Assembly (NCBI RefSeq): GCF_002584535.1
Contig: NZ_NUOT01000046.1
Location: 1 to 64,000 of the forward strand
Source: Bacillus cereus
Lineage (GTDB): Bacteria; Bacillota; Bacilli; Bacillales; Bacillaceae_G
Length of the DNA: 64,000 nucleotides
Direction of reading: 5' to 3'
This document shows, in pieces, positions 18,346 through 51,908 of this stretch. Below the pieces are notes generated by a model that made no database searches, had not been told where the DNA came from, and worked only from the letters and a program-made list of their open reading frames with translations. Position numbers and translations under genes: made by a program. How positions within the stretch are numbered: position 1 is the first letter of the stretch; each line of letters opens with the position of its first letter.

Positions 18346-18819
18346 CTACTTAATTACAATGTCGTGTAGTTCAAAACGAATCATTTTTTTCAATTCATCT
18401 AGTTCTATTTCAACTTGATATCCTATCTTCCCAGCACTAAAGATTATTGTATCTAGCTCCATAGCACTATGATCAATAACGGTAGGAAAATATTTTTTCA
18501 TCCCAATCGGTGAACAACCCCCATGAATATAACCAGTAAGCGAGAGTAAATCTTTTGATTTCAACATGCTTATTGATTTTTCACGAATGCTTGCAGCAGC
18601 TTTTTTCAAATCCAACTCTTCACTGACAGGTACAACAAAAACATAGTGTTTTCCTGATTTCCCTATAGTAACTAGCGTTTTAAAGACTTGATTGGGAGAT
18701 TGTCCTAATACCAAGGCAACATCTATTCCACTAATAGCATCAGTATCCGCATAGCTATAATGTTTATAATTAACTTTCTTCTTATCTAACAACCGCATTA
18801 CATTCGTTTTGTATTCCAT
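18346..18819 (-). CDS. Cys-tRNA(Pro)/prolyl-tRNA editing protein YbaK family
   Basis: 157 residues with the YbaK/ProX editing-domain pattern: VALVLGQSPNQVFKTLVTIGKSGKHYVFVVP (about 36-66) containing the catalytic Lys, and GYIHGGCSPIGMKK (about 102-115). These enzymes hydrolyse cysteine (or another small residue) wrongly attached to tRNA(Pro). The ATG at 18819 has GGAGGG ten bases upstream; the frame before it is not conserved in look. Its neighbour on the other side is a histidyl-tRNA synthetase, so two tRNA-charging functions are adjacent but divergent. Confidence 0.88.
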   Translation of the reverse strand: MEYKTNVMRLLDKKKVNYKHYSYADTDAISGIDVALVLGQSPNQVFKTLVTIGKSGKHYVFVVPVSEELDLKKAAASIREKSISMLKSKDLLSLTGYIHGGCSPIGMKKYFPTVIDHSAMELDTIIFSAGKIGYQVEIELDELKKMIRFELHDIVIK

Positions 18820-19020
18820 TGTGCTAAAACCCTCCTGTAATAAATCTATATGTACTATGTAATATATAAATTGAGATGTAGACGGTGGAAATATAATTTC
18901 CAATACATAAATATTGTAACTTACTTTACTATTCTCTAACAAGGAATGACAAACATATCACTCACACTGTTTATATAAGATTAATTCATCCGTTAATCTC
19001 ATTTTTGTTTTCAAAAAGCA

Positions 19021-19049
19021 TTGCTATCTCAATAATCACTTGTTATAAT
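19021..19049 (+). promoter_or_regulatory. SigA promoter of the hisS leader
   Basis: -35 TTGCTA (19021-19026), a 17-base spacer, and -10 TATAAT (19044-19049) preceded by TGT, giving an extended -10. Transcription should begin near 19056, just upstream of the leader peptide. Confidence 0.75.
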
Positions 19050-19077
19050 TTTGAAAAAACTTAAGGAGAGACCCAAT

Positions 19078-19119
19078 ATGTTTAATTGTACTTCTTTCCA
19101 ACTTCATCATCATATATAA
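19078..19119 (+). CDS. Histidine leader peptide MFNCTSFQLHHHI
   Basis: A 13-codon ORF with an AAGGAGAG site 7 bases upstream. It ends with three consecutive CAT histidine codons (19105-19113), one isoleucine codon and TAA. It lies between a SigA promoter and a terminator hairpin that precedes a histidyl-tRNA synthetase gene. Ribosome stalling at the His codons would report low His-tRNA. The peptide itself probably has no other function. Confidence 0.8.
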   Translation: MFNCTSFQLHHHI

Positions 19120-19125
19120 CGCCGT

Positions 19126-19228
19126 GTATCCGAAGAATTTTTTCTTCGTGGGTACAGGGCTTTTCCTGTTACCCACGAAGCGTTCATAAAGCTATGTGGG
19201 TATTTTTATACCTGCATAGCTTTTTTTA
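19126..19228 (+). promoter_or_regulatory. Ribosome-mediated transcription attenuator of hisS
   Basis: Three stems are visible. Stem 1:2 pairs 19126-19137 with 19142-19155. Stem 2:3 pairs 19144-19158 with 19165-19180 (15 bp, one bulge). The terminator 4:5 pairs 19188-19203 with 19208-19223 and is followed by TTTTTTTA. Segment 3 (TACCCAC, 19170-19176) can instead pair with GTGGGTA (19196-19202) in the terminator arm. A ribosome at the TAA stop would cover part of segment 1 and let 2:3 and the terminator form. A ribosome stalled at the His codons leaves 1:2 free to form, so 3 can open the terminator. Confidence 0.72.
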
Positions 19229-19250
19229 TTTTATAAAAGGAGTGATTTAA

Positions 19251-20543
19251 ATGGATGTAAGAAATGTAAAAGGAACAAAAGATTATTTACCCGCGGAACA
19301 GTTGCTTAGAAACAAAATTAAATGCGCTTGTGAAGAGACTTTTGAACGATATGGCTGTAAACCACTTGAAACACCTACATTAAATATGTATGAACTGATG
19401 GCTTATAAATATGGAGGCGGTGCTGAAATTTTAAAAGAGATGTACACACTACGTGATCAAGGAAATCGTGAACTCGCACTTCGGTATGATTTAACGATTC
19501 CATTTGCAAAAGTAGTAGCAATGAACCCAGATATCAGGCTTCCCTTTAAACGCTATGAAATTGGAAAGGTCTTTCGTGATGGACCGATAAAACAAGGAAG
19601 GTTTCGTGAATTTATTCAATGTGACGTTGATATAGTCGGCGTAGAATCTGTTATTGCTGAAGCTGAATTAATGGCCATGGCATTTGATCTTTTCAAAACT
19701 TTAAACTTAGATGTTACCATTCAATATAATAATCGTAAGTTATTAACAGGTATCCTTCAATCGATTGAAATTCCAAACGAACAAACAAACGATGTTATTT
19801 TATCATTAGATAAACTTGAGAAAATTGGGGTTGATGGCGTACGAAAGAATTTACAAAGCCGTGGGATAACAAATGACACTGTAGAGGTAGTTTGTCATAC
19901 TGTTGAATCTTGTATAACATTAGAAATTGATGAATTTAACCAAGCTTTCTTAAATTCACTTGTTATAGAGGGAAGCAATGAACTAAAGCAATTACAGCAA
20001 TATTTACTCGCACTTGGTATCCAAGACAATGCTGTGTTTAATCCATTCTTAGCAAGAGGACTTACTATGTATACAGGCACAGTTTATGAAATCTTTTTAG
20101 CAGATGGAAGCATTACTTCAAGCATTGGTAGTGGCGGACGTTATGATAATATAATTGGGGCTTTTCGTAACGATAATACATCCTATCCAACAGTAGGGAT
20201 TTCCTTTGGCTTGGATGTTATTTATACAGCTCTTACGCAAAAAGAAACGGAATCTGCTTCTGTCGATATTTTCATTATTCCTATTAACACCGAAGTGGAA
20301 TGTTTACGAATCACACAACTTTTGCGTTCTAAAAGTACCTTCAAAGTTGAACTGGAACTTGCCGGCCGTAAATTAAAGCGAGCTCTTAATTACGCAAATA
20401 AAGAGAATATTCCTTACGTGCTTATTATTGGTGAAACTGAAATTTCTACGGAAACCATTGTTTTACGTAATATGAAGGAAGGTACCGAAATAAACCTCCC
20501 CCTATCTTGCATTGAAAATGGAACATTAAAGGATTATTTATAA
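19251..20543 (+). CDS. hisS: Histidyl-tRNA synthetase, second-copy type
   Basis: 430 residues, class II synthetase. Motif 2 is seen around KRYEIGKVFRDGPIKQGRFREF. The histidine motifs are RGLTMYTGTVYE (HisA region, with Thr where Asp is common) and SIGSGGRYDNII (motif 3). The first block reads LRYDLTIPFAKVVA, the archaeal/eukaryotic form, rather than the LRPEGT of ordinary bacterial HisRS, so this is probably an extra, differently descended copy. The C-terminal anticodon domain (about 335-430) is present. AAAGGAG lies 8 bases before the ATG. A His leader peptide and attenuator control it. Confidence 0.92.
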   Translation: MDVRNVKGTKDYLPAEQLLRNKIKCACEETFERYGCKPLETPTLNMYELMAYKYGGGAEILKEMYTLRDQGNRELALRYDLTIPFAKVVAMNPDIRLPFKRYEIGKVFRDGPIKQGRFREFIQCDVDIVGVESVIAEAELMAMAFDLFKTLNLDVTIQYNNRKLLTGILQSIEIPNEQTNDVILSLDKLEKIGVDGVRKNLQSRGITNDTVEVVCHTVESCITLEIDEFNQAFLNSLVIEGSNELKQLQQYLLALGIQDNAVFNPFLARGLTMYTGTVYEIFLADGSITSSIGSGGRYDNIIGAFRNDNTSYPTVGISFGLDVIYTALTQKETESASVDIFIIPINTEVECLRITQLLRSKSTFKVELELAGRKLKRALNYANKENIPYVLIIGETEISTETIVLRNMKEGTEINLPLSCIENGTLKDYL

Positions 20544-20610
20544 AAAAGCAGCCAATTAAAAGGTTAAGCCGTTCTCTTTCGAAATACCCGCAACTATACA
20601 AACACATTTA

Positions 20611-20654
20611 AAAGCAGAACAATTCGCACATGAATTCGCTCTGCTTTTTATTAT
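20611..20654. terminator. Bidirectional terminator
   Basis: AAAAGCAGA/TCTGCTTTT encloses an inner AATTCG/GAATT hairpin and has a T-run. It separates hisS from the convergent anti-sigma gene. Confidence 0.75.
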
Positions 20655-20666
20655 CATATCAATATT

Positions 20667-21404
20667 TTAAGTTCCTAGTACTTTTTTACCAAGTGGCTTC
20701 GTACTATTCGAATCTGGTTCAAGTGTAATACCAATGTTATCAAAGGACTGTTTTTGTGCAATTTCATATGTCAGAAGTCCTGATCCAGTTTCATCCGGTT
20801 TAAATATTCCAGCGTTTTTTCTTTCTCCATCTTTTAATAACCAAACTTGATACACTTCTGATTTGTTTACTTGTGGCAAATGATCAGCTTGTACAACTAA
20901 TTTTTTCTTATCTCCTTGTTGCATAACAAATACATACCCTTTTGTATTTTCATCTTTTTGATCGATTGATACTAATGGACGCGTAGAGATTACTTTCATT
21001 GGATCACTGCTTAATTCATCCTTAGCTAAAGATTGTATTTTTAATTGCGAATTTTCGATTGTTACTGCTACTGTAATCACTAACATTGTTCCTAGTAATA
21101 CTGTTGCCAACGGTGTAAATTGTTTTTTTAGTAAAACCGTCCATTCTTTCAATTTCGCTGTTACTTTGTTATCTCTATTCGTTTGTTCGCGAACAAATAT
21201 AAAATCAAACACTTCAGCTTTTAATGTTTCTGGTACTTCTCTCTCTTCAAAATCGAAATGCATTGCTTCCCAAGCTGCCTGCATTGCTGGATACTCAGTT
21301 TGACATTTGGGGCATGTCTTTAAATGTTCTTGAAACGCTCTTTGTTCTCTATCATCAAATGTATTCGTAACATAGGATAATAAATGCTCACATTCTCTCT
21401 CCAT
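20667..21404 (-). CDS. Anti-sigma factor, zinc-binding, RskA-like
   Basis: 245 residues. The N-terminal anti-sigma domain has the zinc motif H-x3-C-x2-C as HLKTCPKC (His27, Cys31, Cys34). A single membrane helix spans about 99-116. The outer part (about 130-245) matches the RskA/anti-sigma-K domain with VQADHLPQVNKSEVYQVWLLKDGERKNAGIF. It should hold the adjacent ECF sigma factor at the membrane until an extracytoplasmic signal releases it. It begins 10 bases after the sigma gene, so the two are cotranscribed. Confidence 0.88.
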   Translation of the reverse strand: MERECEHLLSYVTNTFDDREQRAFQEHLKTCPKCQTEYPAMQAAWEAMHFDFEEREVPETLKAEVFDFIFVREQTNRDNKVTAKLKEWTVLLKKQFTPLATVLLGTMLVITVAVTIENSQLKIQSLAKDELSSDPMKVISTRPLVSIDQKDENTKGYVFVMQQGDKKKLVVQADHLPQVNKSEVYQVWLLKDGERKNAGIFKPDETGSGLLTYEIAQKQSFDNIGITLEPDSNSTKPLGKKVLGT

Positions 21405-21414
21405 ACTATCCCCT

Positions 21415-21966
21415 CTATTCTAGATATTTTTTTAATTGCTTTAAAGATTGATGAAGACGACTTTTAGTGGTTCCCAATGGTTCATCTTCCATTTTAGCAA
21501 TCTCACTAAGGGAATAACCTTTCCAATATAGCAAGTCGATTAATCTTTTTTGAGACGTAGACAAATTCTGCTTTGCCTTTTGAATTTCAACACTGTGCAT
21601 CCTTTTCTCGATTTGATTTTCTGAATCTGCTATATGCATATGTTTTTCAGAATCATAAAGATTATTAAAGTTTCTATACATAAGTTCTTTATTTTCTTTT
21701 CGGACATAATCAATACATATATTCCTTGTAATAGTAAGTATCCAATTTACGAAATCACCTTTTGAAGGATTATACATACTTTTAGTTGTCCAAAGTTTCA
21801 AGAAAATTAATTGAACAACTTCTTTTGTTTTGTCCTCATTTCCTTGGAAAAATTTAAAAGTGAAGCTATATATCAACTTAATATATCGTTCATATAGTTC
21901 TTCTAATGCAGGACGATAGTTTCTTTGTACTAATTGCATTAACTCATAATCATTTTTTTCTTTCAT
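21415..21966 (-). CDS. ECF RNA polymerase sigma factor
   Basis: 183 residues with the two sigma domains only. Region 2 runs about 20-85 (IYSFTFKFFQGNEDKTKEVVQLIFLKLW and the DNA-melting part DFVNWILTITRNICIDYVRK). Region 4 runs about 125-180 (LLYWKGYSLSEIAKMEDEPLGTTKSRLHQSLKQL, a helix-turn-helix). It redirects RNA polymerase to a small regulon. Its anti-sigma partner follows directly. The pair resembles the SigK/RskA arrangement. The ATG at 21966 is chosen with AGGTGA close upstream; a GTG at 21978 is an alternative. Confidence 0.9.
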   Translation of the reverse strand: MKEKNDYELMQLVQRNYRPALEELYERYIKLIYSFTFKFFQGNEDKTKEVVQLIFLKLWTTKSMYNPSKGDFVNWILTITRNICIDYVRKENKELMYRNFNNLYDSEKHMHIADSENQIEKRMHSVEIQKAKQNLSTSQKRLIDLLYWKGYSLSEIAKMEDEPLGTTKSRLHQSLKQLKKYLE

Positions 21967-36504: not shown

Positions 36505-36765
36505 AAGAGCAAAATAAAAATGACCGTTCCGCCCTTAAAAAAGGACGAAACGGTCATTGTTCCGCGGTACCACCTTCATTGATATAAAATATATATCCGC
36601 TTGGCGCCTGTAACGCAGGCGTACGCCTAAACTTTCGTTTAAGACTCAGGGATAGGTTCGATACTTTCTATACGAGGAATCTTTCAGCCAGTGAATTCCA
36701 CTCTCTTGCGTAAGAAGACATATGTACTAGTTCCCTTCAACGATTTTCAATTTAATTTTTTATAC
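36505..36765 (-). promoter_or_regulatory. T-box riboswitch, proline-specific (CCT specifier)
   Basis: On the minus strand stem I ends with CGAACCTATCCC, giving the specifier codon CCT for proline. Further down lie the T-box sequence AAGGTGGTACCGCGGAA (about 36575-36559) and the terminator AATGACCGTTTCGTCC/GGGCGGAACGGTCATT followed by TTTATTTT (about 36558-36505). Uncharged tRNA(Pro) should open the terminator and switch on proBA. Confidence 0.92.
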
Positions 36766-50980: not shown

Positions 50981-51448
50981 ATGGGATACATTGAAGACAT
51001 GCGAAAACTCGTAGGGAATCATCCGCTTATCATAACTGGTTCACACGTTATGATTTTAAATGAACAACATGAAATCTTGCTTCAACTTCGCACCGATTTT
51101 AAGATGTGGAGCATTGTTGGTGGAACTCTTGAATATGGAGAAACATTAGAAGAAGCTGCCAAAAGAGAAGTATATGAGGAAACCGGACTTATTATAAAAG
51201 ATTTAGAACTCTTTCATACTTTTTCGGGACCTGAATTATTTCAAACATATCCAAACGGCGATCAAGTATATGGTGTCATGGTTGTTTATGTTTGCCGAAA
51301 TTATGAAGGTGATTTACAATGTGCTCCTAACGAGTCAAAAGAATTGCGTTTCTTTCCATTGCATACACTACCACATAATATAGGCACTGTACCAAAAATG
51401 ATTATTGAGCAATTTCAACAATCATTTGCAATAAAAACAAGTAAATAG
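50981..51448 (+). CDS. Nudix hydrolase
   Basis: 155 residues. The Nudix box G-x5-E-x7-R-E-U-x-E-E-x-G-U is seen whole from GGTLEYGE through REVYEETGL (residues 48-70). It hydrolyses a nucleoside diphosphate linked to another group, with Mg2+; the substrate is not deducible. The ATG at 50981 has AAGGAG 9 bases upstream; a TTG at 50972 is possible. Its 3' end overlaps, on the opposite strand, the stump of a trpS gene. Confidence 0.92.
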   Translation: MGYIEDMRKLVGNHPLIITGSHVMILNEQHEILLQLRTDFKMWSIVGGTLEYGETLEEAAKREVYEETGLIIKDLELFHTFSGPELFQTYPNGDQVYGVMVVYVCRNYEGDLQCAPNESKELRFFPLHTLPHNIGTVPKMIIEQFQQSFAIKTSK

Positions 51449-51516
51449 TTGCCAAAAGACGTTCCTAAATGCAGGTAACCAGTTGGCTTAATTCCTGTTA
51501 ACATTATTTTCTTCAC
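51415..51516 (-). pseudogene. trpS: TrpS stump (first about 24 codons) behind a Trp T-box
   Basis: From GTG 51516, with GGGGGAG 7 bases upstream, the minus strand reads MKKIMLTGIKPTGYLHLG and then NYL, the start of tryptophanyl-tRNA synthetase including the HIGH-region TGYLHLG. It then runs into unrelated sequence and TGA at 51417-51415 inside the end of the Nudix gene. The remaining 300 codons are gone. The leader is intact, so this is a clear deletion. Confidence 0.8.
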
Positions 51517-51542: not shown

Positions 51543-51765
51543 AAAGAGCCCCTCGTCCTAGAAAAGGACGAGGGGGCTCCCGCGGTACCACCTTTATTAG
51601 CTACAGTTATAGCTCACTTGATGCTTCTTTAACGTGAAGCGAATCGCCCTAGCTTACTTATTTCAGCCAGAAGCTCCAGAGTCCATTCCATATTCATCCC
51701 TTACTGATTTCCACCAGATATCGGCTCTCTGTGAAGTTCTAAATATGTACTCTTCTCTATCATTG
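51543..51765 (-). promoter_or_regulatory. T-box riboswitch, tryptophan-specific (TGG specifier)
   Basis: On the minus strand stem I ends with GGAATGGACTCTGG, giving the specifier TGG. The T-box core AAAGGTGGTACCGCGGGA (about 51595-51578) is followed by the terminator GAGCCCCCTCGTCC/GGACGAGGGGCTC and TTTTC (about 51579-51543). All parts look functional, but the gene behind it is only a trpS stump. Confidence 0.92.
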
Positions 51766-51908
51766 CTTTTGTTTATTTTTTACATTTTACTACATTTATT
51801 TTTCTGAGAAACATAAATATTCTGTTTTACGCAGCAGGACTTTCACTTTTTTTATCTAATTATATATAGGTTTGCGGAAAATGATTCTACAACTTTGGAG
51901 GAATTATC

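Follow-up and report, generated by a model that had tools for sequence, protein, structure and literature searches.

A histidine-codon leader upstream of a second histidyl-tRNA synthetase gene of Bacillus cereus: a probable member of a five-segment attenuator family with exchangeable sensor codons

T-boxes (RF00230), which read uncharged tRNA directly, are the well-known sensors of tRNA charging in Firmicutes, whereas the enteric His_leader (RF00514) combines a run of His codons with alternative helices and a terminator. In this study we analysed the leader of a gene encoding a second histidyl-tRNA synthetase (hisS2), located at 19021-19250 of a 64,000-nucleotide stretch of Bacillus cereus DNA (contig NZ_NUOT01000046.1, positions 1 to 64,000; referred to as the window). 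T-boxes, like the mechanism proposed here, control histidyl-tRNA synthetase (HisRS) genes by transcription antitermination, but no T-box was detected over the window leader (those of the window lie only at 36538-36749 and 51561-51772). The leader gave no match to RF00514 at the gathering score or at E<=5, and the segment order of the enteric leader is different.

Naville & Gautheret (PMC2965389) predicted in 2010 that Bacillus hisS* and hisZ are preceded by a histidine leader peptide, and the window leader corresponds to this prediction, with a short open reading frame (ORF) containing a His run and a premature terminator placed 5' of a Bacillus hisS paralog. The leader as such is thus already known as a prediction, and an earlier note on this DNA was mistaken in supposing that it had not been described. 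The text of PMC2965389 does not contain the five-segment scheme, the ribosome geometry, the spread to Clostridia or the codon-swapped relatives reported below. Predicted His-leader attenuators preceding the his operons of six B. cereus-group species and of other Firmicutes, including Peptostreptococcaceae/Lutispora and Erysipelotrichales, were presented by Ashniev 2022 (PMC9413887), whose text also refers to T-box sensing of tRNA charging in Firmicutes and reports no RF00514 in the phylum. Like the window leader, these combine a His-codon peptide (with three to five codons in their case) and alternative antiterminators with attenuator and terminator hairpins; however, they concern his operons and not hisS2, and hisS is absent from the main text. 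The leader of a hisZ-like gene of Lutispora (L161; loci are designated by L and a number) matches our model R2, described below, at 53.3 bits and, given this match, part of the leaders of Ashniev 2022 may belong to the same RNA family as the window leader. Another tRNA-synthetase gene, cysS of Rhodobacterales, is preceded by the uORFC-8-2 motif, which the text of PMC8632094 presents as a predicted ribosome-mediated attenuator. It is similar in its cognate codons, but comes from another phylum, is a different RNA and carries the Cys codons inside its first stem. Neither an experimental test nor a five-segment scheme was seen in the text of PMC2965389 or PMC9413887. The ranking obtained with R2, the covariation of helices 2:3 and 1:2, the spacing of segment 1 and the Clostridial codon swap were not found in the open-licence literature (main texts, without supplements or figures). 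What seems to be new is the membership of the leader in a widespread five-segment family with exchangeable sensor codons.

In silico analysis identified the leader ORF with its codons, the helices and their spacing, and the terminator (Table 1). The promoter (recognized by consensus), the ribosome-binding site and the short ORF precede hisS2, and the amino acid encoded by the codon run matches the specificity of the synthetase. Within the 64 kb, this is the only short ORF that has a Shine-Dalgarno sequence and a run of three His codons. The intrinsic U-tailed terminator (19188-19223) is the sole terminator-like site within 18500-21500, although the numbers of promoters and terminators found by the scans do not exceed those in shuffled sequences (9 vs 11.9 and 1 vs 1.3, respectively). 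The folding energy of 19056-19235 is -57 kcal/mol, as compared with -30.1 (standard deviation, sd, 3.8) for 200 shuffles (z -7.1). The SigA promoter, the 13-codon His-run peptide with its good ribosome-binding site and the U-tailed terminator, all proposed in the earlier note, are therefore present. Its three mutually exclusive stems were revised: the exclusivity holds, but there are four overlapping helices formed by five segments, and the first segment is placed at 19121-19137.

Table 1. Elements of the hisS2 leader and the gene that follows it (nt, nucleotides)
Feature	Position	Strand	Remarks
SigA-type promoter TTGCTA-17-TATAAT, extended -10 (TGn)	19021..19049	+	consensus only
Ribosome-binding site of the leader ORF	19063..19070	+	Shine-Dalgarno sequence AAGGAGAG, 7 nt 5' of ATG
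Leader peptide ORF	19078..19119	+	13 codons, MFNCTSFQLHHHI, ATG at 19078, stop TAA
Sensor codons	19105..19113	+	three CAT (His)
Segment 1	19121..19137	+	predicted partner: segment 2, when the ribosome stalls at the first His codon
Segment 2	19142..19160	+	predicted partner: segment 1 or 3
Segment 3	19165..19181	+	predicted anti-antiterminator with segment 2, antiterminator with segment 4
Segment 4, terminator 5' arm	19188..19203	+	predicted partner: segment 3 or 5
Segment 5, terminator 3' arm and U tract	19208..19233	+	arm extends to 19223
Ribosome-binding site of hisS2	19235..19242	+	AAAAGGAG
Second-type histidyl-tRNA synthetase gene, hisS2	19251..20543	+	NF009085/PRK12420, 430 amino acids, ATG 19251

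Helix 1:2 (19121-19137 with 19142-19160; 16 pairs) excludes helix 2:3 (19144-19158 with 19165-19180), which in turn excludes helix 3:4 (19170-19181 with 19191-19202; 11 pairs and one mismatch), and the latter excludes the terminator, helix 4:5. The duplexes 1:2 and 3:4 are more stable than their shuffled counterparts (-17.8 vs -10.3, p 0.007, and -17.0 vs -9.0, p 0.003, respectively), and the hairpins 2:3 and 4:5, scored without a null of their own, reach -24.2 and -20.9. The pairing of segment 3 with the terminator arm noticed earlier (19170-19176 with 19196-19202, TACCCAC/GTGGGTA) is perfect and can be lengthened to the 11 pairs of 3:4.

We consider it likely, with a probability of roughly 0.8, that the window leader is a ribosome-mediated transcription attenuator, which senses charged tRNA-His and controls the second histidyl-tRNA synthetase. 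When tRNA-His is uncharged, the ribosome would stall when a His codon occupies the A site, its leading edge lying just short of segment 1. Helix 1:2 would then form at once, leaving segment 3 free to build the 3:4 antiterminator, and hisS2 would be transcribed. With plentiful His-tRNA the ribosome would reach the stop codon and cover most of segment 1; 2:3 would form, followed by the 4:5 terminator, and transcription would end. A leader that is not translated at all is predicted to be ON in this five-segment model. Relative to the textbook trp leader the parity is inverted: in the scheme proposed here, stalling keeps the first segment uncovered.

The geometry of the leaders argues for this scheme. 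In all 42 leaders sharing the design of the window leader (see below), segment 1 begins 13-18 nt past the first His base (mean 15.4, sd 1.1), a count blind to any segment 1 beginning within 9 nt of that base. Relative to the stop codon, its start ranges from -14 to +4 (sd 4.4). Segment 2 starts were entered by hand where the automatic pick was an extended hairpin (loci including L006, L015, L017, L019, L020, L033, L053, L055, L056, L059, L062 and L072). When the first His codon is in the A site, the leading edge of the ribosome is about 12-13 nt downstream. With this footprint, the constant spacing suggests that segment 1 remains just accessible during stalling and is covered once the ribosome is at the stop codon. 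The His codons are thus placed, in silico, so that the position of the ribosome sets the helix that is formed: for a transcript ending at 19205, the equilibrium probability of 3:4 is 1.00 with the ribosome edge at 19117 and 0.001 with the edge at 19132, the two intermediate positions being mixed. The earlier note had proposed this mechanism (2:3 and the terminator when the ribosome is at the stop; 1:2, with segment 3 invading the terminator arm, upon stalling at the CAT codons), and it is supported by the fit of the sequence, the energies and the conserved geometry. It also agrees with the covariation, which is clear for 2:3 and weak for 1:2.

Conservation was examined among hisS2-type genes, the relatives being the best 80 of 130 from a scan of named genomes. 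Within these 80, the closest protein is 59% identical to the window HisS2 and no title names the B. cereus group. Among 397 genomes belonging to the order that includes P. taiwanensis, 60 contained the gene (E<=1e-100). The upstream set comprised 140 distinct regions, including the window and excluding four duplicate loci (L081-L084). A short ORF with a Shine-Dalgarno sequence and a His run is present in 99 of the 140, as compared with the 0.05 per set expected from dinucleotide shuffles; the loss of His codons and stems in relatives, named in the earlier note as grounds for abandoning its proposal, was thus not encountered. The peptides end, for example, with SQLHHHIK (Bacillales), LQQHHHG (Brevibacillus), VQLHHHDKR (Paenibacillus) and NQLHHHRRSL or KKLHHHHRKHL (Clostridia). 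Position -2 of the His run is occupied by Gln in 80 of the 99 leaders, with CAA as the codon in every case, and position -1 by Leu or Phe in 76.

The 99 leaders fall into 42 with the design of the window leader and 57 leaders of Bacillales, designated class B. All 42 contain helices 2:3 and 4:5, while p<0.05 was obtained for 1:2 in 35 and for 3:4 in 22. For the covariation analysis, 29 of them were aligned (alignment A3), with the omission of five near-identical, three Paenibacillus and five L040/L056-type leaders. In helix 2:3, 96.9% of the cells are paired and both sides have changed in 5 pairs and 19 cells (shuffles, 2.4 and 5.0; slid alignments, at most 3 and 11), and its covariation is clear. 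Helix 1:2 is well paired (88.1% vs 22-55% when slid); its covariation is weak, with changes on both sides in 3 pairs and 6 cells (shuffles, 1.0 and 1.2). A model prepared from 27 Brevibacillus and Clostridia leaders, with the window and L018 excluded (R2), placed its top match in the window at 19105-19183, with 33.7 bits (a score to which the His codons contribute) and a rough E of 2.1e-6. This was the first of 11 matches listed, the next having 14.6 bits, and L018 was recognized at 25.9 bits (E 4e-4). Through a model built without it, the window leader is thereby placed in a five-segment leader family of Firmicutes.

Class B leaders (e.g. L092, L111 and L120) encode a similar His peptide, and 56 of the 57 have a terminator. 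Their 1:2 helix encloses the stop codon of the leader and covaries with it (UAG with CUA, UAA with UUA), and column pair 33:85 is G-C in 47, A-U in 8 and G-U in 2. The distance between the first His base and the first base of the helix is 15 nt in 42, 12 nt in 14 and 13 nt in 1 of the 57 leaders. An antiterminator pairing with the 5' arm of the terminator was found neither between the His codons and the terminator (mean z +0.47; 2 of 56 below -1.6) nor in the 5' untranslated region together with the leader (mean z +0.25; 1 of 56), and a partner of the 3' arm gave nothing consistent (mean z -0.56; 10 of 56).

The relatives of the leader extend beyond hisS2. A model built from A3, with the window included (R1), matched 39 places in 35 of 225 genomes from the order of the L020 genome and 53 places in 46 of 247 sampled genomes from the order of the L019 genome. 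We read 91 of these 92 places; the remaining one overlaps L182 on the other strand. Scans with R1 and with the model R3 (see below) scored about 17-20 candidates per genome under strict filters, by which weak copies are missed. The 91 loci comprise 75 His-type leaders (HYH in three and only HH in one), 13 aromatic leaders and three matches that have no leader and were taken as false (L197, L260 and L269). The His-type leaders precede HisS2 (13), another HisRS type or HisRS-like ORF (27), HisZ-like or other PF13393-type ORFs (29), binding-protein ORFs (5; Pfam SBP_bac_3 checked for 3) and a Na_H_antiporter-family protein (1); these labels reflect the best BLAST match to six references, in some cases with only 24-33% identity. 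The 13 aromatic leaders carry, at the position of the His run, sequences such as YYSNYYR, NYYYSYYR, FFNNHFR and FFFSFII. All of them precede transporters, i.e. SNF (9; Pfam checked for 7) or BrnQ-type (4; PF05525). Aromatic residues make up 54 of 104 among the last eight codons and 12 of 160 before them, with the peptides of L192 and L204 cut at an Arg codon for this count. Anchors were recognized in 11 of these leaders, in 10 of which 1:2, and in 7 of which 3:4, reached p<0.05.

R3, the model derived from the 13 aromatic leaders, matched 51 places in 39 of 225 genomes; 50 were read, the last being L266, which had been read before. Nine of the 50 are training loci found again and 41 are others, in 39 of which the last eight codons include three or more for aromatic residues. 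The 50 loci precede SNF-like (40), BrnQ-like (5) and other ORFs (5), and four of the last group encode ABC permeases or binding proteins according to Pfam (L297, L298, L312 and L320). In L318 (1400-1620), a Leu run (CTC TTA TTA TTA) is placed on the five-segment scaffold 5' of an SNF-family transporter gene. The window leader is not recognized by R3 itself and is therefore tied to the aromatic leaders only via the His-type ones. At the gathering score, no Rfam family covered the leader in 17 further loci tested. We conclude that the window leader is probably one copy of a homologous, codon-swappable attenuator scaffold distributed across Bacilli and Clostridia, in which the RNA is constant and the sensor codons vary: His before genes for HisRS, HisZ and ABC-type binding proteins, Tyr or Phe before those for SNF, BrnQ-type and ABC transporters, and once Leu before SNF.

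Three other explanations of the window leader were weighed. In classical attenuation of the trp type, the stalled ribosome would block the 5' strand of the protector 2:3 and segment 1 would have no role; helices 2:3, 3:4 and 4:5 by themselves do form a normal protector, antiterminator and terminator set, and the weak covariation of 1:2 points the same way. However, segment 2 begins 28 nt past the last His codon, beyond the reach of a stalled ribosome (on the footprint given above), and both the shuffle test passed by 1:2 in most leaders and the constant distance of segment 1 from the first His codon make this alternative unlikely. It might also be supposed that the nascent peptide, with its conserved Gln-Leu, causes ribosome arrest, with free histidine or some other ligand as the signal instead of uncharged tRNA-His. 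The prevalence of Gln at -2 and of Leu or Phe at -1 is in keeping with such an arrest, but the exclusive use of CAA may have a cause at the nucleotide level, and the occurrence of Tyr and Phe runs, and in one case a Leu run, on the scaffold in front of amino-acid transporter genes fits codon sensing, so that we regard peptide arrest as very unlikely. That the terminator is constitutive and merely damps hisS2, the ORF being a relic, is hardly credible: the terminated state is indeed the most stable full-length fold, but the His run, the ribosome-binding site, the helices and their spacing are conserved in Bacilli and Clostridia, and the codons have been swapped in a matching manner.

Several observations weigh against attenuation by the five-segment scheme itself. 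At transcript end 19205 the probability of 3:4 is not monotonic (0.30 with the ribosome edge at 19123 and 0.86 at 19129), which indicates that the outcome depends on the exact ribosome footprint. With the transcript extended to 19228, the terminator state wins at all four ribosome positions tried; the switch would therefore have to be kinetic and decided during transcription. We infer that it would operate through ribosome stalling and kinetically trapped folding, with a resulting effect on hisS2. No His-run ORF was found in 41 of the 140 upstream regions, and 3:4 is not significant in 20 of the 42 leaders, including the three of Paenibacillus and four of the L040 type. The weak covariation of 1:2 belongs here too: in an alignment slid by -3, the changes on both sides number 3 pairs and 5 cells (vs 3 and 6 observed), among its nine pairs there is one that is open in 23 of the 29 sequences, and 346 of 500 shuffles reach its number of pair types. 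Both the duplex and the covariation counts treat related sequences as independent. Finally, R2 fails on the three Paenibacillus and ten class B leaders given to it (E at best 0.54), and the retention of the peptide in class B, where no 3:4 partner was found in the 56 leaders examined, means that conservation of the peptide alone is no proof of the RNA logic.

Database matches of other kinds were dismissed. The trpB motif RF04312 over 19145-19231 (26.6 of 59 bits) is below threshold and was attributed to chance. In plasmid and phage collections, matches to the leader are short (at most 39 bases), and five viral contigs in which 17 bases of it recur exactly score at most 14.8 bits with R1, which was also ascribed to chance.

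The protein encoded downstream is a histidine--tRNA ligase of the NF009085/PRK12420 family (753 bits; cut-off 540) with the domain PF13393 and the anticodon-binding domain PF03129, so that the second hisS of the earlier note is confirmed by family match. Identity as HisZ was rejected: the protein scores 364 bits with TIGR00442 hisS (cut-off 287) and 154 with TIGR00443 HisZ (cut-off 272), contains an anticodon domain and retains the Arg of the loop LARGLxxYTGTVYE, a residue presumably of catalytic role, which is missing from three aligned HisZ-like paralogs. Among 15 genomes with a HisS2-type gene, the number of PF13393 proteins is three in 11, four in 1, two in 2 and one in 1, which suggests that in most of them the gene is a paralog beside another HisRS. 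Another hisS, with a T-box, was detected for P. taiwanensis (L173), Lutispora (L171) and Evansella (L169), i.e. in three of 20 sources in which hisS and hisZ loci are mixed. In gut Clostridia (L030-L034, L048, L051, L055 and L062), HisS2 lies within a longer ORF of about 690 amino acids. The extra domain of L032 has PDB matches to diaminopimelate epimerase (E 2e-15) and histidine racemase (E 1e-13). In eight of these nine loci the next ORF belongs to one cluster (M20 peptidase by Pfam for L032).

Both T-boxes of the window are on the minus strand. That at 51561-51772 is strong (145 bits), and on its 3' side (51415-51516, minus strand) there is only a short start, MKKIMLTGIKPTGYLHLG..., of 33 codons, which from its translation we take to be TrpRS-like, followed by a convergent NUDIX-like gene; this arrangement resembles a decayed trpS copy of which the T-box has remained. 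The T-box at 36538-36749 lies 5' of proB- and proA-like genes, named from their translations.

To conclude, in the three relatives that have a T-box on one hisS and a ribosome-read leader on its paralog, a single cell would have two ways of reading one signal. If our interpretation is true, the codon-swappable scaffold is a modular amino-acid sensor, and the codons of the leaders could suggest the substrates of the transporters encoded downstream. It would also represent a natural test of how the position of a ribosome is converted into a transcription decision, with the first segment left free rather than covered, and its natural codon swaps would amount to a codon-replacement experiment already performed by evolution.
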